Position numbers and translations under genes: made by a program. A stretch of DNA of 64,000 bases from Candidatus Krumholzibacteriota bacterium (GTDB taxonomy: Bacteria; Krumholzibacteriota; Krumholzibacteriia; Krumholzibacteriales; Krumholzibacteriaceae), in assembly GCA_016932415.1 (NCBI GenBank), contig JAFGCX010000010.1, forward strand, positions 1-64,000, given 5' to 3'. Numbering within the stretch: the first letter of the stretch is position 1; each line of letters opens with the position of its first letter. Positions 48,899-60,099 of this stretch are shown here, one piece after another. Below the pieces are notes generated by a model. It had not been told where the DNA came from. It made no database searches and saw nothing but the letters and a program-made list of their open reading frames with translations.

Positions 48899-50179
48899 CT
48901 ATTCCGATTCGGACACTTCAGCGTGAAAACGCTTGAGATTCCGTTTCGCTTTTTCATTGGTAGGATCTATCTCTATCGCCTTGTTCCATGCGTCCAGAGC
49001 TTCATCAGTCCTGTCGAGCTTGTAGTAGGCGTTGCCAAGGTTTGTCCATGCCGAGCTGCTGTCGCTGCTTCTTCCAATAGCCTCGTTGTACATCTCTATA
49101 GCTTCCACAAATGACCCCATCCTGTAGAAGACGTATCCGAGATTATTATACGTCGCACTGAGTTCCGGATTGAGCTCGATCGCTTTCTTGAAGCTTTCAG
49201 TCGCTTTTTCTTCCTGGCTCGTCTCGGTATAGGTAAGTCCGAGGTTGTTGTAAGCCTCGGTGAAAGAGTCGTCGATCTCGACGGCTTTTTTGAAAAGGTC
49301 GAGAGCCTGTTCATACTGTCCGTTGTGATAACTCATGACCCCGGCGTTGTTAAGCCTCCGGGCTTCTGCGAGATGGCGCCTTCTTTCCTCTTCGTCGAGG
49401 GTACTTTTCTGGTTTTCGATCACTTTGAGGATCTCCGTATTGTTCTGCGTCACTTCACCGACGAGTCTCCTGTTTTCATCGAGAGTCTCCTCCATAGTAC
49501 TTATATTTCTGTCTATATTCTCTTTCCAGCTGGAGACCTCATCTTTGAAACTGGCAAGACTGCCCTCGTTCGATTTCAGAGTATCTTCGATTTCACCTGT
49601 CTTTTCCGCGAGAGTATCAGCGATGCTTTCTATGATGATCTTGTTTTCTTCGTTGACTTCAGAGATCATCGATTTTATCTGTGCCAGCTTTTCATTGATC
49701 GATCCGCTCAGATCATCGCGCATCAGATCGGTTTTTTCTTCCATCTGCCTGAACATCGATAGAATATCCGACGTACTCTGTTTCTGGAAATCCCAGGATC
49801 TTTCGATCTCGCTCCTGATTGACTCGATCTCCTCGTATCGCTGGTCTTCGGCCTTTTCGCCGCTGAGCAATATCTCGAACCTGCATTCATTTTTTTCATC
49901 ATCGTGGAATCTACAGCTTTCGCCGAGGCAGTTCACTTGTCCTCTGAATGACTTGGCGAGGAAGCGGACAGATTTTTCCTGCTGAAGCGATCCGGATTCC
50001 TCCTCTGCCAGAGAGGCCTGGTCGGAATCAGGATTCATGAAGATGTCATCTCCGGAGTCTTCCCGTTCTGTCTCTTCCACTTCGGTGTTGAGATCGTGGT
50101 CATCAGCCTCCCTGACAAGGAGTTCCCTGTCGGGACCTTCGAGAATCGATGCCTGTGTGATAAGCGGGCAAATCTTCAT
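48899..50179 (-). CDS. TPR protein with coiled coil and four-Cys N-terminus
   Basis: A 426-residue protein. The N-terminus has Cys4 (MKICPLIT), an acidic linker, then Cys84, Cys89 and Cys99 in VNCLGESCRFHDDEKNECRF. These could form a metal site. A long coiled coil runs from about 115 to 270, and four TPR units (about 275-420; for example SFTEAYNNLGLTYTETSQEEKATESFKKAIELNP) end the protein. The ATG overlaps the stop of the upstream giant TPR gene by four bases. No signal peptide, so a cytoplasmic scaffold is likely. Confidence 0.85.
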   Translation of the reverse strand: MKICPLITQASILEGPDRELLVREADDHDLNTEVEETEREDSGDDIFMNPDSDQASLAEEESGSLQQEKSVRFLAKSFRGQVNCLGESCRFHDDEKNECRFEILLSGEKAEDQRYEEIESIRSEIERSWDFQKQSTSDILSMFRQMEEKTDLMRDDLSGSINEKLAQIKSMISEVNEENKIIIESIADTLAEKTGEIEDTLKSNEGSLASFKDEVSSWKENIDRNISTMEETLDENRRLVGEVTQNNTEILKVIENQKSTLDEEERRRHLAEARRLNNAGVMSYHNGQYEQALDLFKKAVEIDDSFTEAYNNLGLTYTETSQEEKATESFKKAIELNPELSATYNNLGYVFYRMGSFVEAIEMYNEAIGRSSDSSSAWTNLGNAYYKLDRTDEALDAWNKAIEIDPTNEKAKRNLKRFHAEVSESE

Positions 50180-53100
50180 GATAAGTTCCTTTCGTCTGGA
50201 ACCGGAGAAAGGTCTCCGGTCTTCTCAAGTAGTTCCACCTTATGTTCAAATTGTGATTCGAGAAATCTCGCGTAATTCTTTTCCGCTCTTTCCCTGTTGA
50301 GATCAGATGCCTCGTCCTGTCCGATCAGTTTCGCGAATGCCGTTGCCGCTCTTCCAAAATCTCCGACCCTCTCGCTCGCGACTCCCACGATATGGAGGAG
50401 TTCTGCCGCTGCCGGATCGGGCCATTTTTCCAGCCGGCTGATGGAACCAGCAAGGGATAATGCCATGACCGGTTTGTCCATATAGAGGTACGTCTTTGCC
50501 AGAAGTATCTTTCTTTCAGGTTCCGGGATAGACGAGCGTCTTATGAATTTAAGAGCTGAACCGAAATCTCCCAGATCAAGCGCTGTCCGTGAGAGTCTCT
50601 CCAGGTTCTTGTCATCGACCTCTCCCTCTTTCAGAAGTGAGAGTCCTCTCGAGATTTCCGCGCGGGCCGAACCGGTCAGGATCGTTTCTATGCGCCTGAG
50701 GATCGTCTCACGCTCGCCGCAATCACCGAGTACCTCGCTGAATATTCTGGCCGCTTCTTTCGAATGACCGGAATCTTCGAAAAAGCCGGCCAGAGATATA
50801 AGCAGGTCAGTGGCATTTTTGACATCAAAGAGAGCGCAACCCTCGCGGACGAGATCTTCCGCTTTTTCCGGCCTTCGCGCCTCTACGAGGAGACGGCTGC
50901 CGAATAGATAATACTCCGGTCTTTTATCCTGATCGATTATATCGAAGGTCTTTTCAGTCATCTTTTGAAGGATGTCGTCAGTATGTCCATTGATTTTTTC
51001 GAGAGCGGCGAATGCTTCCGCGCTTTTTCCACCTTCGAGAAGGCATTCGGCGCGATGGATCTGAGCTGCCGCGAAAACACTGTCCGGCCAACGGGTAGCG
51101 TCAAATGAAGTCAGGATCTCCTGCCAGGCAGATCGATCTATATTGAGAGCTTCCCTGTATCTGGCCAGCGACTCGTCATAATCGCCAAGTTCACTTTTAA
51201 GGGCCGCGTAGTGGATAATGAAACTGACGTCCAGGTCGAAATGCTCGAGAAATTCGGTCGCGGCATCTTTTTTTCTATCGAGATCAGTGCTGTCGCTGTT
51301 TAGGATATTGAGGACCGATACGAGGGCTTTTTCTTTTTCACCGATGGCGATGTTGATCCTTGCCGATAGCCTGCAGGCGTGAAACTCCACGGGGTCCCTG
51401 CTCAGAATCTCAAGGACGATCTCCATGATCCTGCTCGAAGTCGTCTCATCTTCCTTGAAAAGCTGGAAAAGGAGATCGGCAGATTCATCGTATTTTCCCT
51501 GCAAAGCGAGTGAACGGCCATAGATCGATGTAAGTCTTCTGTTATCGGGACTTTCTTCCCTGATATTTTTGATTGTCTGATCGAGGGCCCGGAGAAACTC
51601 GACAGGTCCGTTCTGAGCCCCGTTAAAATACCGGTACGCGTCTTCCATGCGCTGCTCTTTCCATGCTATCAGGCCGAGAAGTTTCGAAAAGAGCCATGGT
51701 TTTATACTTAAAGGAAGAAGTTCTTCCAGTCTCGTCCTGATCTTCGTGGAATATCCCTGGGAAAGTTCCAGGCATTTTTCCAGTTCGATCATCGCTTCAT
51801 TCTCTTTGCCCATCCGGAGCAGAGTGTCAGCAACGAGGTATCTCGCTTCAGGGTTGCCCGGATCCTTGTCGATTATCCGGCTGAGTTCCTCCAGGATCGA
51901 TCTGAGGTCGACCTCTTTTCCAGTCAGAGCCATGGCAAGGCATCGTAGTGAATCGACAGCCTTTCCATCCGCCATAGATATCCTTGCTCCGTATACATGA
52001 AGCGCCGCTGTCTCTTCTTTCGGCAGCCGGGCGATAGCTCTTCTGAGTATTTCCTTGGCCAGATCGACATGGTTCACATTCAGGGCGGATCTGAGAAGTT
52101 CTTCCCAGATTTCCCTGTTACCCGGTTCTTTTTCAACAAGCCTGTCGAACCTTTCAATGACGTCTTTTATCTGTCCCGGATCGGATTCAAGAGATTTGCA
52201 CAGATAGTGGGCCGCTTTCAGTAAGAGGCCGTTATCGAGGTGAAGCTGATAGAGAGCGAGGTTAAGAGTCGTGTTTCCGGGATCTCTTACCGCGGCCTTT
52301 TCATATTCCGATTCAAGATCGAGTCCGGCCGAATCTCCGAACATCATGAGCTGGTCGAATTCAAATATCGCTTTTTCGATCCTTCCGGTCCTTAAGTCCG
52401 CTTTCGCGCGGAGGACCCTGAACGGTTTGGAAAGATCTTCAGTCTCGGAGATCAGATCGATGATCTTGACCATTTCTTCCCAGTTGCCGTCATCTTCCGG
52501 AAGGAGGGTTTCTATTCTCAGGCGCAGTTCGTCATGCGCGTCGGGGTTATTCCTGTAAAACTCGAGAATGAAGGCTGTGGCTCCACTGACATCTTCCTTG
52601 CGCAGACCCAGTTCGAGGATGGAGATGATCCTGTCGAGGTTGCTTCCCGATTTTTCAATGATCTTGCCGGTCAATCTGAAGAGGTCCTCACTGCTGAACT
52701 GATCATTTCCTTCAAGAGATCCGATCAACTGTTCCGCTTTCTCGGAGTTTCCGCTCAAGGCGTGAAGTTCGACTTTTGCGGCGAGAAGTTCGGTACTATT
52801 GTCTCCGGATGATTCGATCCCTTCTTCGATGATATCGAGGAGTGAACTTATCAGAGCGGGATCCATCTCTGCCGACAGGATGGCGGCTGAGGATGCCTGT
52901 GAGAAGTTTTCAAGGTGTATGTACAGGCGCGCGAGAAGTCTCTGCGATGGAGCGGTGTTTTTGACGTCATCTCTTTCCTCGATCCATCTGACGATATCCC
53001 CGCACGAGTCCCGATCTAAATCAAAAAGTATCTCCATCTGTTCGACAGCCTCTTTGGTCCGTCCGAGATCTTCCGCTATCTCACAGAGAAGGAAGACGAT

Positions 53101-54075
53101 CTTTTTGTTTCCATAATACTTTTCGGGCAGGTGAGACAGCCTGTCAAAGGCGAATAACCTGCTGTCAGTCCTGTCCGGGAAGAGTTGTTTTATCCGGTCG
53201 CTGGCAGATTCGATATTCCACCCTTCCTGTGTTTTTTCGATATATTCCTTTATTCTGCGTTCGCCCTCGTCATCGGAGCCCGACCTTATGAGTATCTCTC
53301 CGAGAAGAAGCAGGTGATTCTCCGATTGTGACTCGGATGAGCCCAGTAGCAGAAGGAGTTCATCGAGTGGAGGGTCGTCGAGTTCTATTGCCTGGAAGAA
53401 CCTAGGTTCCGCCTTTTCAGGATGGGAGAGCAGGATTGATATTTTTCCGAGCTGAAATTTCACGAATGCATGATCGGGATAAGCTCTTTCGATCTCTATG
53501 AAAAGAATCCCGAAGAGTTCAGCGTCTTCAGGCGAGTTGTCAAGGGCCCGGGCAAGGGGTGCCGCGGCCTCCCTGAACCGTCCGGCCGCCATGTGGAGGA
53601 GCCCGAGAAGAAGCTCATTGTCTGTATATTGTGATCCCTTACCCTGCGATTCTTCCCGAAGCCCTTTAGATCTCGTCTCGGATCTTTTAACGAGGCTTTG
53701 AATGAAATCTTCAGAGAAGAGGCGCAGCATTTCCCGGATCCGCTCGATATTTTTACTTCTCAGCAGCATCTCTATTATAAAACTTGCAAGGAAAGGATTG
53801 AAATTCCGCTGCAAGGTCTCCCTGGCCATTTCAATGATCTGGTTCCTTGCTTTTGGATGATGCCTTATCGCCCCTTTCATAAGGGAGACGGACTGTTTGA
53901 AATCGGAGATGTCAAACGAAAGCTGAATCGCTTCGATAGCCAGGTCAAAGTCATCCGGCCATTTTGACAGAGCGTCGACAGAGCGCTGGAATGCTTTTTT
54001 GAGATCGCCTTTCAGACGATCCTGCTGTATCCGTTTAAGAGCTTTCTCCTGTGTAAGAAACAATTCTATCTCCAT
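50176..54075 (-). CDS. Giant TPR-repeat protein
   Basis: A 1299-residue, almost entirely helical protein built of degenerate TPR-like units (for example DDEGERRIKEYI, GRTKEAVEQMEILFDLD and LEDAYRYFNGAQNG-type helices). There is no signal peptide, enzymatic motif or membrane segment. The charge pattern is Glu/Asp/Lys-rich throughout. It is co-translated with the four-Cys TPR protein downstream (4-base overlap). Probably a large scaffold or assembly factor; its partners are unknown. Confidence 0.8.
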   Translation of the reverse strand: MEIELFLTQEKALKRIQQDRLKGDLKKAFQRSVDALSKWPDDFDLAIEAIQLSFDISDFKQSVSLMKGAIRHHPKARNQIIEMARETLQRNFNPFLASFIIEMLLRSKNIERIREMLRLFSEDFIQSLVKRSETRSKGLREESQGKGSQYTDNELLLGLLHMAAGRFREAAAPLARALDNSPEDAELFGILFIEIERAYPDHAFVKFQLGKISILLSHPEKAEPRFFQAIELDDPPLDELLLLLGSSESQSENHLLLLGEILIRSGSDDEGERRIKEYIEKTQEGWNIESASDRIKQLFPDRTDSRLFAFDRLSHLPEKYYGNKKIVFLLCEIAEDLGRTKEAVEQMEILFDLDRDSCGDIVRWIEERDDVKNTAPSQRLLARLYIHLENFSQASSAAILSAEMDPALISSLLDIIEEGIESSGDNSTELLAAKVELHALSGNSEKAEQLIGSLEGNDQFSSEDLFRLTGKIIEKSGSNLDRIISILELGLRKEDVSGATAFILEFYRNNPDAHDELRLRIETLLPEDDGNWEEMVKIIDLISETEDLSKPFRVLRAKADLRTGRIEKAIFEFDQLMMFGDSAGLDLESEYEKAAVRDPGNTTLNLALYQLHLDNGLLLKAAHYLCKSLESDPGQIKDVIERFDRLVEKEPGNREIWEELLRSALNVNHVDLAKEILRRAIARLPKEETAALHVYGARISMADGKAVDSLRCLAMALTGKEVDLRSILEELSRIIDKDPGNPEARYLVADTLLRMGKENEAMIELEKCLELSQGYSTKIRTRLEELLPLSIKPWLFSKLLGLIAWKEQRMEDAYRYFNGAQNGPVEFLRALDQTIKNIREESPDNRRLTSIYGRSLALQGKYDESADLLFQLFKEDETTSSRIMEIVLEILSRDPVEFHACRLSARINIAIGEKEKALVSVLNILNSDSTDLDRKKDAATEFLEHFDLDVSFIIHYAALKSELGDYDESLARYREALNIDRSAWQEILTSFDATRWPDSVFAAAQIHRAECLLEGGKSAEAFAALEKINGHTDDILQKMTEKTFDIIDQDKRPEYYLFGSRLLVEARRPEKAEDLVREGCALFDVKNATDLLISLAGFFEDSGHSKEAARIFSEVLGDCGERETILRRIETILTGSARAEISRGLSLLKEGEVDDKNLERLSRTALDLGDFGSALKFIRRSSIPEPERKILLAKTYLYMDKPVMALSLAGSISRLEKWPDPAAAELLHIVGVASERVGDFGRAATAFAKLIGQDEASDLNRERAEKNYARFLESQFEHKVELLEKTGDLSPVPDERNLS

Positions 54076-54301: not shown

Positions 54302-54691
54302 GTGATCTGGATGTCAGCTGTCTATTCGATCTCGACGGAGATACATTTCTGCGCTTCGCATTCATTAAAAGGGTATGACGGGGACTGCTCAAGAATGCAT
54401 GGACATAACTGGGTACTCCGTGCATATTACGAATTCGTGAAGATCGATCAAAGAGGTCTCACTGTCGATTATCTCGAACTGAAATCGGGTATGGAAACGG
54501 TGATCCTTCCCCTGTTCGACCACCGCCATCTCAACGAGATCGCTCCGTTTGATTCGATCAATCCGACATCGGAGAATATCGCAGCCGAGATATACAGGCT
54601 CCTTCAGAAAGACCTGAAGATCCCCGGGGGAAGATTGACTGAAGTGGAACTATGGGAGACACACTCTGATATGGTGCGGTATCGTGAATAG
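54302..54691 (+). CDS. queD: 6-carboxy-5,6,7,8-tetrahydropterin synthase QueD
   Basis: A 129-residue QueD/PTPS-family enzyme converting dihydroneopterin triphosphate to 6-carboxytetrahydropterin. Zinc ligands His20, His33 and His35 and catalytic Cys29 are visible in FCASHSLKGYDGDCSRMHGHNW-type context. Further markers are DHRHLNEI and the final VELWETHSDMVRY. GTG 54302 lies well placed after GAAAGG; ATG 54311 is an alternative. First gene of a four-gene 7-deazaguanine operon, overlapping queC by 8 bases. Confidence 0.93.
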   Translation: MIWMSAVYSISTEIHFCASHSLKGYDGDCSRMHGHNWVLRAYYEFVKIDQRGLTVDYLELKSGMETVILPLFDHRHLNEIAPFDSINPTSENIAAEIYRLLQKDLKIPGGRLTEVELWETHSDMVRYRE

Positions 54692-55412
54692 AAGAGAAAA
54701 TCATGATACAAACAAAGAAGCGATGCCCCCCGGACCGGGAGCCGTTATCCTTCTTTCCGGTGGCCTGGATTCGACTGTCTCCCTGGCTCTTTCATTAGAT
54801 GAGTATACTCCGAAGCTCGCTCTTTTCTTCGATTACGGCCAGAAAGCCCTCGCGCGGGAGGAGGATGCGGCGGCAGCGATCACGGACTTTTACCATATCG
54901 AGATGAAAAAGGTCGCTCTTCCATGGCTGTCAGGAATATCTTCATCTGCTATTATAAAAAGTGACAAAGAGATACCGGAGTATTCGGGAGCGGGAGCGAA
55001 GCAGCGGCTCGATGCTTCGAGGGCGGTCTGGGTCGAGAACCGGAACGGTATATTCATCAATATCTCCGCTGCTTTTGCCGCGGCCAGCGGATGCGCCGTA
55101 ATAGTCACGGGATTCAACCTTGAAGAGGCATCGACTTTTCCCGACAACAGTGCCTCATATATTGAAGCAGCCAACAGGGCGCTGGAACTTGGAGCCGGCG
55201 CCGACGTCAGAGTGATCGCGCCGACAGTCTCGATGGAGAAGCGAGAGATCGCGGCAATGGGGATAACTCTTGATATACCGTGGGAATTTTTATGGAGCTG
55301 CTATAACGCCGATGAAACGATGTGCGGGACCTGCGAATCCTGCGTAAGGTTGAGAAAGGCGATAGAGGGCACCTCTGCCGCGGAAAGAGTCCGATTTTCA
55401 AGGGAGAATTGA
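54684..55412 (+). CDS. queC: 7-cyano-7-deazaguanine synthase QueC
   Basis: A 242-residue ATP-dependent enzyme turning carboxy-deazaguanine into preQ0. The PP-loop is LSGGLDSTVS near residue 25-34. The C-terminal zinc site is CYNADETMCGTCESC, the four-Cys pattern of QueC. Other markers are LFFDYGQKALAREEDAA and VIVTGFNLEEASTFPDNS. GTG start overlapping queD. Probably supplies the queuosine pathway of tRNA. Confidence 0.95.
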   Translation: MNRRENHDTNKEAMPPGPGAVILLSGGLDSTVSLALSLDEYTPKLALFFDYGQKALAREEDAAAAITDFYHIEMKKVALPWLSGISSSAIIKSDKEIPEYSGAGAKQRLDASRAVWVENRNGIFINISAAFAAASGCAVIVTGFNLEEASTFPDNSASYIEAANRALELGAGADVRVIAPTVSMEKREIAAMGITLDIPWEFLWSCYNADETMCGTCESCVRLRKAIEGTSAAERVRFSREN

Positions 55413-55413
55413 A

Positions 55414-55992
55414 TTGAAGGAAACAGAGTACAGGTTAATATCCACATCGATCGTCGACAGGGTGATCGACTATGACGGAAGCCAGCTTCGAAGCCATTTT
55501 ATCAGAAAGATCGCGGAAATACGTGGTGACGGGATCGTCGCCTTTTCGGGAGCATGTTATGTCAGGGGAGAGAACCTCGTCGATCTTGAAGATGCCGAGA
55601 ATGGAAGTACAATAGTAGCGGGTGGGATGCTTCATTTTATATGCGAACACTTCCAGGTCCCCCTGGCCGAGATGAATTACAGGCTGAGGTTGTTCGTGAC
55701 TATCATCATGGAGGTCCTCTCCGGACTTGCCCCGGAACGGACTTTCAGGAGAGACGGAGATGATATTTTCGAGGACGACAGAAAGATAACGGTGGCGATA
55801 GCAACGCTCAGTCCTACTTCGGCCCTCTTTCACTGTGGAGTAAATATCGATCCGGAAGGTGCTCCCGTTCCGGCCGCCGGACTCGGAGAATTCGGGGTCG
55901 ATCCGTGGAAACTGGCCAGGATGGTCCTCGACGCGTACAAGTATGAATGCGAATCGGTCGAACTCGCCGTCAGGAAGGTCAGGGGGGTATGA
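55414..55992 (+). CDS. DUF366-family protein in the queuosine operon
   Basis: A 192-residue protein that I recognise as DUF366-like, a family known mainly from archaea and some bacteria. Features: IDYDGSQLRSHFIRKIAEIRGDGIVAF near the N-terminus, MVDLED-like NLVDLEDAENGS, and GGMLHFICEHF. No cofactor motif is evident. TTG start directly after the queC stop, with AGGGAGAA upstream; the end overlaps queE by four bases. Its place between queC and queE implies a role tied to 7-deazaguanine synthesis or use, but the biochemical function is not known to me. Confidence 0.75.
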   Translation: MKETEYRLISTSIVDRVIDYDGSQLRSHFIRKIAEIRGDGIVAFSGACYVRGENLVDLEDAENGSTIVAGGMLHFICEHFQVPLAEMNYRLRLFVTIIMEVLSGLAPERTFRRDGDDIFEDDRKITVAIATLSPTSALFHCGVNIDPEGAPVPAAGLGEFGVDPWKLARMVLDAYKYECESVELAVRKVRGV

Positions 55993-56741
55993 GCGAAAAT
56001 GGAAAGAGCGGCAATGTGACAGAGCTTTTTACCTCCGTTCAGGGTGAGGGGATATATGTCGGAGTAATGCAGCTTTTTATCAGGCTTGCAGGATGTGGTC
56101 TTGAATGTTCTTATTGCGATACTCCCCTTTCGAAGAGAGATCCGGCAGAATGCCTCATTTATGATCAGGGATCGGTCCGAAGGATAGACAATCCGGTCGG
56201 TGTCTCAGAGATCGCGCGGGTGGCAGTCTCTATTGCCTCCCGAAAGCAGGGGATACATTCGTTAAGCGTCACAGGGGGGGAACCGCTGGAACAGCCGGAT
56301 TTCCTGGCAGAATTTCTCAAGTTGTTCAGAAAAAGCGATCTGCCGGTCTATCTCGAGACGAATGGCCTTCCCGAGCAGGCAGCGCGAGTAATCGCTCCCC
56401 TTGTCGATCTTGTCTCACTGGATATCAAACTTCCTTCTCTCTGTGGAGGGGGAGATCTTTTTCCCGTATATGAAAGGGTCCTTCCCGTTTTTGCCACTGC
56501 CAGGATGTTCTGCAAGATAGTCATCACCGACAGCCTTGATATCAATGAGTTCACTGCGGCCGTCAGGATCGTCTCGGGATTTGACAGGGGAACACCTCTG
56601 GTCATACAGCCGGCGACCCCTTCGGCAGGGGCCCGGCCCCCCCTTCCCGGTATGATCATCGATTGCCATGAAAAAGCTTCAGCTTTCCTCAGTGACGTGA
56701 GAGTGATTCCACAGTGTCATCATATTCTCGGATTACCCTAG
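55989..56741 (+). CDS. queE: 7-carboxy-7-deazaguanine synthase QueE
   Basis: A 250-residue radical SAM enzyme that rearranges carboxytetrahydropterin to carboxy-deazaguanine. The cluster motif is CGLECSYC (Cys36, Cys40, Cys43), preceded by SVQGEGIYVG and followed by SVTGGEPLEQPDF, with VYLETNGLPE and LDIKLPS, all typical of QueE. ATG 55989 overlaps the DUF366 gene by four bases; the longer frame upstream is not credible. No queF is in the window, so the operon itself stops at preQ0. Confidence 0.95.
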   Translation: MSENGKSGNVTELFTSVQGEGIYVGVMQLFIRLAGCGLECSYCDTPLSKRDPAECLIYDQGSVRRIDNPVGVSEIARVAVSIASRKQGIHSLSVTGGEPLEQPDFLAEFLKLFRKSDLPVYLETNGLPEQAARVIAPLVDLVSLDIKLPSLCGGGDLFPVYERVLPVFATARMFCKIVITDSLDINEFTAAVRIVSGFDRGTPLVIQPATPSAGARPPLPGMIIDCHEKASAFLSDVRVIPQCHHILGLP

Positions 56742-57209
56742 AAGCGCGGAGAAAAAAAGTGCCGCGAGATGATACGATGCAGGGTCGGGTTCGTGAGGCG
56801 GCGACCACCTCGCAGCATCTCAGATGAACAGCAATAGGCATACCAGATATTATTCTTAAATCGATTAAAAAGCACTATCCCTTGCCAGCAAAGGATTTGT
56901 CAGCTTCATCGCGTAAAACGCGCTTTTGCCTGAAAGATCCGTATCATTCCCTATTGTTCCCCGGGAGTCCCGGAGGGTAGATTGCCATCTTCTTTCTTTT
57001 TGCAACCTGAAGTTGCGTTCCTGCAATTGGGGGTATCAGACCGGGACCTTACCCGGAAGAGGAAGCCCAGCATGGTTAAAAAATAAAATCACTTGACACA
57101 AACGTTCTATTCGTTGTTAAGTAAGGCGTTAGGCTTAAGTTGATAGCTGTATTCTTTTCAGTGCGGAGGGGAATCAGGATCCCTCTTGGAATTAAGGAGG
57201 AGGGCACAG
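56742..57209. other. Intergenic region with inverted repeats and HU promoter
   Basis: About 470 bases without a gene. Three small inverted repeats are visible: CCGGGA/TCCCGG (56961-56973), GCAAC/GTTGC (57002-57016) and CCGGG/CCCGG (57041-57056). A TTGACA -35 at 57093-57098, with a weak -10 (TGTTAA) near 57115-57122, probably drives the HU gene and leaves an 85-base leader. The inverted repeats lie upstream of that promoter and might be an operator region or part of an unrecognised RNA. Confidence 0.45.
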
Positions 57210-57488
57210 ATGACAAAAGCGGAGATTGTAGAGGACATTTCCAGCAAGACCGGGTTGACAAAGAAAGAAGTCGCTGAAGCGGTTGATTGTTTTCTTTCCT
57301 GTATTTCCAAGGGTCTTGTGGAAGGGAAGCATTACGAGATTCGTGGATTCGGTACTTTTAAAGTCAAGGAACGCAAGGCAAGGATGGCGAGAAATCCGCG
57401 TACCGGTGAGCCTGTCCCGGTTCCAGACAGAAAAGTCCCCGTATTCAAAGTCTCGCGCGAGTTGAAAGATATGGTAGCCCAGTCCTGA
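57210..57488 (+). CDS. HU/IHF-family DNA-binding protein
   Basis: A 92-residue nucleoid protein. The dimer helices TKAEIVEDISSKTGLTKKEVAEAV are followed by the DNA-binding arm region YEIRGFGTFKVKERKARMARNPRTGEPVPVP and the final VPVFKVSRELKDMV, the standard HU/IHF layout. ATG 57210 follows AGGAGGAGG; an earlier in-frame start is unlikely. Bends and compacts DNA as a dimer. Confidence 0.96.
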   Translation: MTKAEIVEDISSKTGLTKKEVAEAVDCFLSCISKGLVEGKHYEIRGFGTFKVKERKARMARNPRTGEPVPVPDRKVPVFKVSRELKDMVAQS

Positions 57489-57586
57489 TCATTGGACTGC
57501 TGACGGATTTCTGATTTTCCAGCCACAGCCGGTAAATCCGGTGGGGTCCGTTCTCTATTCAACCGATTACTCCAGGCAGGTGAATA

Positions 57587-58618
57587 ATGTCTGATCGCGT
57601 CGTCGATCTAAGAAGCGATACTGTGACGAGGCCTTCTTCAGGTATGAGAGAGGCAATGTCCAAAGCAGTTGTGGGAGATGATGTCCTCGGGGATGATCCG
57701 ACTGTGATCAGTCTTGAAAAAAGGATGGCCGCGCTTCTCGGCAAGGAAGACGCGGTATATGTCCCGAGCGGAACAATGGCCAACCTTCTCGGGCTGCTTA
57801 CACAGACGAGTCCGGGAGATGAAGTAATACTCGATCGCAACAGCCATATATTCAATTATGAGGCGGGCGGAGCCTCAGTTATCGGTGGGCTGCAGCTGCA
57901 CCCGTTGAATGGTCCGGAAGGATTTCTCCCCGCCGATGAACTCCCCGGAGCTGTAAGGCCGGACAATATCCATCATCCGAGGTCATCCCTTATTTCCGTT
58001 GAGAATACCCACAACAGGGGCGGAGGGAGGATTTATCCGATCGATCAGCTTGAATCGGTTTCGCGGTTCGCCAGGGAGAATCGTCTGAGAATCCATATGG
58101 ATGGGGCGAGGCTTGCCAACGCTGTCGTCGCGACAGGCATCTCGTTCGAAAAGTATGGCCGTCTGGCTGATTCGATCAATATATGTTTTTCCAAGGGGCT
58201 CGGAGCTCCGGTCGGATCGATAATGATCTCGGACAAGGAGACGGTCAAAAAAGGAAGATACTGGCGCAAGAGGCTCGGGGGGGGGATGAGGCAGTCGGGG
58301 ATACTCGCCCAGGCCTGTCACTTCGCGCTGGACAACAATATCGAGAGACTTGCCGATGATCATCTTCTCGCGTCGAGGATAGGTGCCGCGGTTGAGAAGA
58401 ACCCCGGGCTGAAGCTGTCGTTTCCGGTCGAAACCAATATCGTTATCTTCAGGGTAGAGGACGAGAGTATCGATTTCGAGGACTTCACCGGAAAGCTGGA
58501 GCGATCCGGGATCAGGCTGCTCGCTTTTGGTGACAGAAAGATCCGCATGGTCACGCATCTCGACATCAAACCGGAAGATATAGATTATTTTGAGAAAGTG
58601 ATGGCATCGGTCCTTTAA
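57587..58618 (+). CDS. ltaE: Low-specificity threonine aldolase
   Basis: A 343-residue PLP enzyme (fold type I) cleaving L-threonine and L-allo-threonine to glycine and acetaldehyde. Family markers: VDLRSDTVTRPSSGMREAM at the start, GDDVLGDDPTV, VPSGTMANLL, ENTHNRGGG, HMDGARLANA, and the PLP Lys in CFSKGLGAPVGS. Length is normal. It follows HU by about 100 bases and precedes rsmI. Confidence 0.93.
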   Translation: MSDRVVDLRSDTVTRPSSGMREAMSKAVVGDDVLGDDPTVISLEKRMAALLGKEDAVYVPSGTMANLLGLLTQTSPGDEVILDRNSHIFNYEAGGASVIGGLQLHPLNGPEGFLPADELPGAVRPDNIHHPRSSLISVENTHNRGGGRIYPIDQLESVSRFARENRLRIHMDGARLANAVVATGISFEKYGRLADSINICFSKGLGAPVGSIMISDKETVKKGRYWRKRLGGGMRQSGILAQACHFALDNNIERLADDHLLASRIGAAVEKNPGLKLSFPVETNIVIFRVEDESIDFEDFTGKLERSGIRLLAFGDRKIRMVTHLDIKPEDIDYFEKVMASVL

Positions 58619-58678
58619 ATGGATTCTCTTCGATTTTCCCACCGGGAGCGTCGGCAATACAGAGATGGATCATAAGTA

Positions 58679-59377
58679 ATGAGGAAATACCAGTTCTATT
58701 TCGTCGGAACGCCGATCGGCAATCTTGACGATCTGTCTGCGAGGGCTGTCGAAGTGATCAGGTCGGTCGACATGCTTCTCGCTGAAGACACGAGAAAGAC
58801 CGGGATCCTTCTTAAAAAATACCAGATCGAGATCCCCCTTCGTTCATACCACGACCACAACAAAGAGAAGATCACCCCTTCGATAATCGAGAAACTCAAG
58901 GATGGGATGAAGATAGCTCTCGTTTCCGATGCCGGAATGCCGGGAATATCGGACCCCGGATATTATCTGGCGAGAAGGTTGATCGAGGAGGATCTCGAAT
59001 ATTCAGTGATCCCCGGCCCAAGCGCGGTGACGACCGCCATTCTGCTTTCCGGGTTCCCCCCGGACAGATTTACATTCTATGGGTATCTGCCGAGAAAATC
59101 GGGGGCGCGTCTGAAGATCATTAAAGAGGCTGGAGAGACTCAGGGGACCTCGATCTTCTTCGAATCACCTCACAGGATCATAAAAGCTCTCGAAGCGATC
59201 GATTCCCAGCTCGGGGAGAGGCAAGTCGCCGTAGTGAGGGAGATGACGAAGATCTATGAAGAAGTCCTAAGGGGAAGCGCCGCGGAGATCATCTCGAACC
59301 TCGGAGAGAGAAAACTTAAAGGTGAGATAACACTTGTCATAAAGGGAAGGAGCAGGGGAGAGGACGCGGAAAAATGA
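58679..59377 (+). CDS. rsmI: 16S rRNA (cytidine-1402-2'-O)-methyltransferase RsmI
   Basis: A 232-residue tetrapyrrole-methylase-fold enzyme modifying C1402 of 16S rRNA with AdoMet. Markers: FVGTPIGNLDDLSARAVEVI, LLAEDTRKTGILL, SYHDHNKE, LVSDAGMPGISDPGY, IPGPSAVTTAILLSGFP and YGYLPRKSG, then FFESPHRI. All are diagnostic. It lacks the longer C-terminal domain of some homologues (usual length about 280). Confidence 0.95.
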   Translation: MRKYQFYFVGTPIGNLDDLSARAVEVIRSVDMLLAEDTRKTGILLKKYQIEIPLRSYHDHNKEKITPSIIEKLKDGMKIALVSDAGMPGISDPGYYLARRLIEEDLEYSVIPGPSAVTTAILLSGFPPDRFTFYGYLPRKSGARLKIIKEAGETQGTSIFFESPHRIIKALEAIDSQLGERQVAVVREMTKIYEEVLRGSAAEIISNLGERKLKGEITLVIKGRSRGEDAEK

Positions 59378-59487
59378 GATGACCCCGTAAGTGTAATTTC
59401 TTGACAGGGAAATCCTGGGGATTCATAATATGGGCCTTGAAGTTTCAGGTATGAGCATTTGGGATATTTTATTGCAGGAAGTACGAT

Positions 59488-60099
59488 TTGTCAGCAAAAC
59501 ATGATTTTAAGGAAAAATTGAGGAGACTGCTTTCTCCGGTGATTGCTTTATGCGTCTATGCCGGAATAACTCCGATGGGTATTACGCTCTTTGGCATATT
59601 CCTCAGTTTTATCGGGGGCTGGCTGGTCGGTATGGGCAGGCTGGGCCTTGGAGCGCTTGTACTTATAATCTCTGGCCTGAGTGATGCTGTCGATGGATCC
59701 CTCGCCCGCAGTCAGGGGAAAACAACACTTTTTGGCGCTTTTATCGATTCTACGGGGGACAGGGTAAGCGAACTTGTATATTTCATCGGTATCGTCTTCT
59801 ATTATTTTGGAAAGACGCCTGTCAATAACCTTATGATCTTCTTTTCCCTGATCGCTCTTGCCGGTTCTTTCCTTACAAGTTACGCCAGGGCGAGAGCAGA
59901 GGGCCTCGGGCTCGATTGCTCGGTCGGCTTACTCGAGAGGCCGGAAAGGGTCGCCCTGCTCATTACCGGGCTGATCTTCGGCGGAATCGTCCTGGAAGTG
60001 ATAATTGTAGTCCTTGCCGTATTAAGTGTCCTGACATTCATTCAGAGAGTAAAGCATGTCAGGGATCTTACGACCCCCGGTGAAAGCGGTACCTATTGA
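59488..60099 (+). CDS. CDP-alcohol phosphatidyltransferase
   Basis: A 203-residue inner-membrane enzyme with about six helices. The CDP-alcohol motif DG(x2)AR(x8)G(x3)D(x3)D is complete in DGSLARSQGKTTLFGAFID followed by STGD. It transfers a phosphatidyl group from CDP-diacylglycerol to an alcohol (glycerol phosphate, inositol phosphate or similar). The sequence does not decide which. TTG 59488 follows AGGAAG. Confidence 0.9.
   Translation: MSAKHDFKEKLRRLLSPVIALCVYAGITPMGITLFGIFLSFIGGWLVGMGRLGLGALVLIISGLSDAVDGSLARSQGKTTLFGAFIDSTGDRVSELVYFIGIVFYYFGKTPVNNLMIFFSLIALAGSFLTSYARARAEGLGLDCSVGLLERPERVALLITGLIFGGIVLEVIIVVLAVLSVLTFIQRVKHVRDLTTPGESGTY

Follow-up and report, generated by a model that had tools for sequence, protein, structure and literature searches.

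What is a DUF366 protein doing in the middle of an operon for 7-deazaguanine synthesis? The question is raised by the window, which is the whole 64,000-nucleotide stretch analyzed here from a Candidatus Krumholzibacteriota bacterium (assembly GCA_016932415.1, contig JAFGCX010000010.1) and in which the genes run in the order queD-queC-DUF366-queE, all on the plus strand, at positions 54302-56741. A first-pass annotation had placed DUF366 in 7-deazaguanine metabolism, perhaps acting before or after preQ0. The preQ0 pathway was retained; the data point rather to the QueC step itself, from 7-carboxy-7-deazaguanine (CDG) to preQ0, because the other preQ0 enzymes are present and QueC is altered. We consider, at a probability of about 0.55, that DUF366 is the dedicated partner of a distinct class of QueC in this step. 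The four genes are:

54302..54691, plus strand: queD, 6-carboxytetrahydropterin synthase (PF01242 PTPS, 116.6 bits; TIGR03367 QueD, 78.6 bits, under its cut-off of 89.25)
54684..55412, plus strand: queC of the variant class (PF06508, 175.5 bits; TIGR00364, 166.4 bits against a cut-off of 150.3)
55414..55992, plus strand: DUF366, 192 amino acids (PF04017, 175.3 bits against a cut-off of 29.9, model positions 3-184 of 184 covered)
55989..56741, plus strand: queE, a radical SAM protein with its probable start at 55989 and an open reading frame from 55947 (PF04055, 41.5 bits; CX3CX2C by eye)

The gene coordinates confirmed that DUF366 abuts queC and overlaps queE. The queC start falls inside the 3' end of queD (54684 against a queD end at 54691), DUF366 starts with TTG one base past the end of queC, and its own stop overlaps an in-frame ATG at 55989 in the four bases ATGA, so that queE most likely begins there rather than at 55947. 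All QueE models scored under their cut-offs for the window queE, the best at ~61.5-61.6 bits (TIGR03963/TIGR04349).

Among the best 80 of 130 DUF366 loci, all bacterial by record title, queC, queD or queE lay within 5 kb of DUF366 in 70, and the arrangement is therefore not a matter of chance. Where the flank was sufficient (73 loci), queC stood immediately upstream of DUF366 in 43 and queE immediately downstream in 48. A part in 7-deazaguanine metabolism is thus borne out by 70 of the 80 loci, and the opposite pattern, DUF366 genes lying mostly away from que genes, by which the annotation had proposed to judge its claim, was not found: nine of the ten other loci belong to genomes that hold a QueC of the same class elsewhere. 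The 80 loci came from Krumholzibacteriota, Latescibacterota, Armatimonadota, Zipacnadia, Coatesbacteria, Gastranaerophilales, Bdellovibrionales, Planctomycetota, Margulisiibacteriota, and others, and the closest named relative of the window copy among them (69% identity) was from a Candidatus Krumholzibacteriota metagenome-assembled genome. Of 14 control genomes searched, M. jannaschii and M. acetivorans alone gave DUF366 matches; QueC was matched in these two and also in Haloferax and Sulfolobus.

QueC first makes an amide from CDG and then the nitrile, using ATP in each step (PMC13279940), and its canonical signature comprises SGGxDS, YxQxHxxE, VPxRN, YPDC, and CX8CxxCxxC (PMC13329287). When the motifs of the window queC were read, SGGLDS, YGQ, RN, PD, and the zinc cysteines were found to be retained, and WVENRN and EEASTFPDNS replaced the canonical YVPxRN and DxSGYPDC. 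The window protein accordingly has VENRN instead of VPxRN, although most other variants retain the proline, and FPDN instead of YPDC. Across DUF366 genomes the second site reads E-x-x-F-P-D-N (the proline varies in a few), in contrast to D-x-S-G-Y-P-D-C in canonical QueC (the serine and glycine vary). Together with the tyrosine before VPxRN, which becomes tryptophan, four residues near the substrate site are swapped, from Y, D, Y, and C to W, E, F, and N. Among unique sequences of at least 170 residues, the variant residues were W in 89/89, E in 89/89, F in 88/89, and N in 89/89, against Y in 56/63, D in 63/63, Y in 63/63, and C in 63/63 of canonical sequences. Both classes share SGGxDS, YxQ, the Arg-Asn pair, the base-edge aspartate, the lysine, the tyrosine of CY, and the zinc cysteines (CxxCxxC), residues whose roles, including the reading of the base edge by the aspartate, are described in PMC13279940 and PMC13329287. 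An operon with queD and queE is also common to the variant and to canonical QueC (PF06508, cluster 1 of PMC13329287).

The distribution of the two classes follows that of DUF366. All 90 classed QueC rows from DUF366 genomes, the window included, were variant (48 neighbors and 41 genome copies; 65 genomes; four rows partial). For 16 of the 80 loci the QueC of the genome was outside this reading, as was a second partial PF06508 match in genome G081 (L183) that fits no class, and L184 gave no QueC match; some QueC were read both as neighbor and as genome copy, and the genome counts exclude two repeats (G116, G134). In contrast, all 31 QueC rows from 30 DUF366-lacking genomes of the window phylum were canonical, like 2pg3 and 3bl5, and the scores of full-length QueC in this phylum did not overlap, at 136-181 bits with DUF366 and 207-247 bits without.

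The same division was seen in a second phylum, that of the Bacteriovorax locus L088, where 115 of 191 genomes had DUF366 and 179 had QueC. The low-scoring class was found in 111 of the 112 QueC-bearing DUF366 genomes and the high-scoring class in 60 of the 67 without DUF366 (Fisher p 2e-38, kinship uncorrected and with the class cut of E 1e-58 chosen after viewing the data). The odd DUF366 genome, G184, holds one variant and one canonical copy. Of the seven odd genomes lacking DUF366, three have the variant (G218, G265, G282), two have a third class with YRDC (G238, G279), and two were not read (G285, G288). When the sequences themselves were read, 26/26 low-scoring rows from DUF366 genomes were variant, and the DUF366-lacking rows comprised the 30 best-scoring, which were canonical, 14 with YRDC, and three variants; the canonical rows (L196-L225) are thus top-scoring and non-random, and L246-L265 and the ambiguous L226-L245 were hand-picked. 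Over both phyla, QueC of DUF366-lacking genomes was canonical in 61/61 rows taken by region or top score, and the two samples together gave 89 distinct DUF366 genomes with a QueC read, all of which carry the variant. The variant was accordingly accompanied by DUF366 in all but three genomes where read. The six plasmid or phage QueC that were read (from 152 and 216 matching records) were all canonical.

The best sign of a working link, going beyond neighborhood, is that variant QueC accompanies DUF366 even when the two are not neighbors. Ten of the 80 loci had no que gene beside DUF366, some of them with little flank, and nine of these genomes have QueC elsewhere, in all nine cases the variant (G083, G091, G093, G096, G101, G102, G108 (partial), G117, and G121). 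In a tree of 165 QueC, built by a quick method and with some long branches, the variant formed one side of a branch with support 99, and the YRDC class likewise with support 98. The three variants from DUF366-lacking genomes grouped with DUF366-bearing ones, a placement that fits later loss of DUF366.

The third class, with GYRDC for GYPDC, was observed in the Bacteriovorax phylum, in 14 genomes that lack DUF366 (L226-L235, L239, L240, L242, L243), beside a second, high-scoring copy in ten of the 14. In L226 and L229 its gene adjoins one that resembles a UDP-glucose epimerase by eye.

We then considered what DUF366 itself could contribute. An AlphaFold2 model built from 20 sequences had a mean predicted local distance difference test score of 90.4, and its closest structure was 2ddz, an archaeal member of the same family described as a P. 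horikoshii protein of unknown function and released in 2007 (Z 26.3, 1.6 Å over 183 residues, 37% identity). After 2ddz came biotin protein ligase (BPL; best Z 13.7), LipB (12.8), and LplA (11-12); against chains of these three, Foldseek gave E values of ~1e-8 to 1e-6 and VIA a Z of 11-14 over 150-168 residues. As modeled, DUF366 has the biotin/lipoate-ligase fold, with the whole fold common to the BPL/LplA/LipB superfamily. A profile search likewise returned 2ddz and then biotin ligases only, weakly (E 0.17-1.8), in an alignment that set KWPND...KK of biotin ligases against R113-x-G-D-D...R-K124 of DUF366 at E 0.17 or worse and in which R-x-G takes the place of KWP. Twelve residues were invariant in 82/82 DUF366 sequences (Y20, G22, G46, V56, D57, M72, R113, G115, K124, H140, N144, E178), and the tail was conserved at K188 (77/82), V189 (81/82), and R or K190 (79/82). 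In biotin ligases a lysine of the KK stretch is catalytic, and by this weak alignment K124 is a putative active-site lysine of DUF366. Cys48 was tried as an invariant cysteine standing in for the one lost from YPDC and was dropped, as it is alanine or glycine in 10/82 sequences. Among the open-licence papers listed, none gave a function for the family (DUF366, COG2029, 2DDZ, PF04017), and none combined queuosine and preQ0 with biotin protein ligase.

Biotin and lipoate ligases take up a small carboxylic acid, which they activate and handle as an acyl-adenylate or acyl-enzyme. The partnership of DUF366 with variant QueC could work along similar lines. The variant would still bind the deazaguanine base, for which an aromatic residue and the aspartate are kept, and ATP, for which SGGxDS is kept; its altered site would carry out only part of the two ATP-dependent half-reactions, or would work well only with DUF366. 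The biotin-like pocket of DUF366 would hold the acid, the activated acyl group, or the amide and pass it to or from QueC; K124 would act on the carbonyl, and R113 would stand where biotin ligases have the K of KWPND. The binding of CDG by DUF366, catalysis by K124, and the division of work with QueC are what we infer, and either half-reaction could fall to DUF366.

A less probable extension is that there are two unlike routes to preQ0. One would be the one-enzyme route of E. coli QueC, the other a nitrile synthase of two proteins, with DUF366 as a biotin-ligase-fold subunit that activates or carries the deazaguanine acid and the remodeled QueC finishing the amide or nitrile. If true, the formation of a nitrile from a carboxylic acid would have a second enzymatic arrangement, one serving many uncultured bacterial lineages and perhaps also archaea (Methanocaldococcus, Pyrococcus) on the way to archaeosine, and annotators of genomes should search for DUF366 next to variant QueC. 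A family of unknown function thereby gains a specific, testable place in a well-studied pathway, and a QueC family lumped by annotation is split, since both the variant and the third class, where tested (the former in the window and L101, the latter in L226 and L229), score above the cut-off of one NCBI equivalog model, TIGR00364. Pairing of a QueC-fold enzyme with a specialized partner protein, as proposed for variant QueC and DUF366, is also described for the phage-defence proteins Cap9 and QatC (PMC13279940, PMC13329287); Cap9 keeps YxDC, QatC loses the QueC motifs, and no linkage to queD or queE is reported for either (PMC13329287). PMC13329287, on the QueC family, does not mention DUF366 and leaves clusters 7, 8, and 10, nearly all archaeal, without analysis.

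Several observations weigh against the partnership. None of the 20 DUF366 members scanned matched a BPL, LplA, or LipB Pfam model up to E 10, with HMMER filters dropping most matches above 0.1, and all 20 matched DUF366. The GRGRxG motif, the substrate/ATP loop of biotin ligases, was not seen by eye in the DUF366 alignment. In G218, G265, and G282 the variant QueC is present and no DUF366 was found. The G282 locus has an intact queD, and no DUF366 gene separates its queC from the gene that follows, which looks by eye like an aminotransferase; unless a copy is hidden in an unassembled part, this genome does not strictly require DUF366. The reverse case, DUF366 without a QueC match at the cut-offs applied, was seen in four genomes: G111 (E 1e-15, one of 43) and G123, G148, and G204 (E 1e-20). 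The residues essential in E. coli QueC are Y35, R99, Y131, and Y189, and phenylalanine at Y131 is partly active (PMC13329287); the variant keeps them with Y131 to Phe as the only change and, judged by these residues, may be able to form preQ0 without a partner. The same pattern of co-occurrence could also arise if the genes were transferred together as a module, and the DUF366 genomes whose QueC was classed are all bacterial, with no archaea among them.

The rest of the pathway bears on the alternatives. The window assembly (3.1 Mb, 95.5% complete) contains FolE, QueD, and QueE, with DUF366, FolE, TGT, and QueA in one copy each and queA adjoining tgt. The absence of queF and folE was correctly reported for the operon; in the genome, folE was found elsewhere (C16), and no true QueF was found, the sole match (26.4 bits) being located within folE. 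In the window order (25 genomes of families f1 and f2), QueA, which like TGT was searched for within the window phylum, was found in 23/25 and DUF366 in 21/25, and QueF in 0/25, all matches being weak (<=27.3 bits) and within FolE matches; those in G014 and G033, barely over the Pfam cut-off, were counted as FolE cross-matches. The preQ0-to-preQ1 step there is therefore without a known enzyme, and the order seems either to make queuosine through an unrecognized preQ0 reductase or to obtain preQ1 by salvage. Outside this order, QueF was present in 5/6 genomes of f8 in the window phylum, all six having DUF366, and in 22 of 43 DUF366 genomes of other lineages (18 at E <1e-28, one of them with an internal stop, and four at ~1e-15); the genome searches for QueF and QueC covered these 43 of the 80 loci, and the other 37 were left out. 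A role of DUF366 tied to the absence of queF, as suggested from the operon, is not supported by these genomes.

Of the alternatives, the one that survives best is still unlikely: DUF366 would divert CDG, the amide, or preQ0 to a separate product, as a ligase or transferase attaching the deazaguanine to a protein or a small molecule, in the manner of Cap9 with the N-terminus of a CD-NTase. The fold would suit such a role, as it is that of ligases which hand their acid on to a lysine of a protein. Some relatives of QueC also conjugate CDG to proteins (PMC13279940). However, a single QueC match was found in 40 of the 42 DUF366 genomes that have any (G081 has the second partial match without class, and the match in G115 is in two pieces), and QueF is present in 22/43, so that the variant most likely feeds preQ0 into the normal pathway; no likely acceptor recurred among the representative neighbor families scanned.

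We regard it as improbable, and rank it after the separate product, that DUF366, long a member of the operon, is inherited with variant QueC as a passenger or a regulator and has no direct catalytic part. The genes are clearly inherited together and three genomes retain the variant without DUF366, yet the co-occurrence persists among non-neighbors (nine of nine cases read), and the twelve invariant residues include the putative active-site lysine. Less probable again is an earlier step, between GTP and CDG, in which DUF366 would handle the unstable 6-carboxytetrahydropterin or substitute for an enzyme. The frequent position of queE after DUF366 (48/73 loci) would agree with it, but FolE, QueD, and QueE are all in the window genome, and neither QueE (one differing against 26 shared positions) nor QueD (one against 10) is split by class, as judged from only five and four DUF366-lacking sequences. 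That DUF366 replaces QueF is very improbable: the window order would fit, with QueA in 23/25, QueF in 0/25, and DUF366 in 21/25, but as a general substitute it is ruled out by the joint occurrence of both proteins in 22/43 genomes, DUF366 occurs in M. jannaschii and M. acetivorans, two archaea that produce archaeosine but do not form preQ1, and biotin/lipoate ligases are not redox enzymes.

A possible candidate for the missing reductase was noted in other lineages. A protein of the HGD-D family (PF06050) is encoded downstream of DUF366 in 22/80 loci, directly after queE in 21 (for example L098:11279-12286, L084:6703-7743, and L044:11378-12403), and one member had as its top NCBIfam match a double-cubane reductase model (E 1.4e-5, far under its cut-off). 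QueF was found in 0/9 tested genomes with the HGD-D gene against 22/34 other DUF366 genomes (p 0.0005, kinship uncorrected; five of the nine are titled Zipacnadia, Zipacnadum, or Armatimonadetes), and the protein is a possible non-orthologous preQ0 reductase in those lineages. As a QueF replacement in the window genome, an HGD-D or double-cubane-like protein was rejected: a search of 78 genomes of the phylum at E 1e-10, made with no positive control, gave no match.

Some smaller observations concern the surroundings of DUF366. A plasmid search gave no DUF366 match and a viral-contig search no confirmed one. The single phage record with DUF366 (L266, MW495066.1, 'Microcystis phage MaAM05') looks like a bacterial chromosome fragment deposited as phage and was not counted, because its neighbors (secDF, glyS, mtgA, fabI, fliM) are ordinary chromosomal genes. 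Fusions suggested by long frames in L052, L103, and L108 were dismissed, as only DUF366 itself was recognized in them. The genes flanking the window operon (50176-54075 and 57186-60099) recur in several related loci (L030-L043), among them a long upstream gene, TPR-like by eye, and a downstream HU gene, a beta-eliminating lyase gene, and others; vertical inheritance therefore accounts for part of the synteny. In L051 (11396-12481), a glutamine amidotransferase-like protein (Peptidase_C26) fused to DUF488 is encoded after queE, and a relative occupies the corresponding position in L055 (11298-12389); the protein could provide ammonia.

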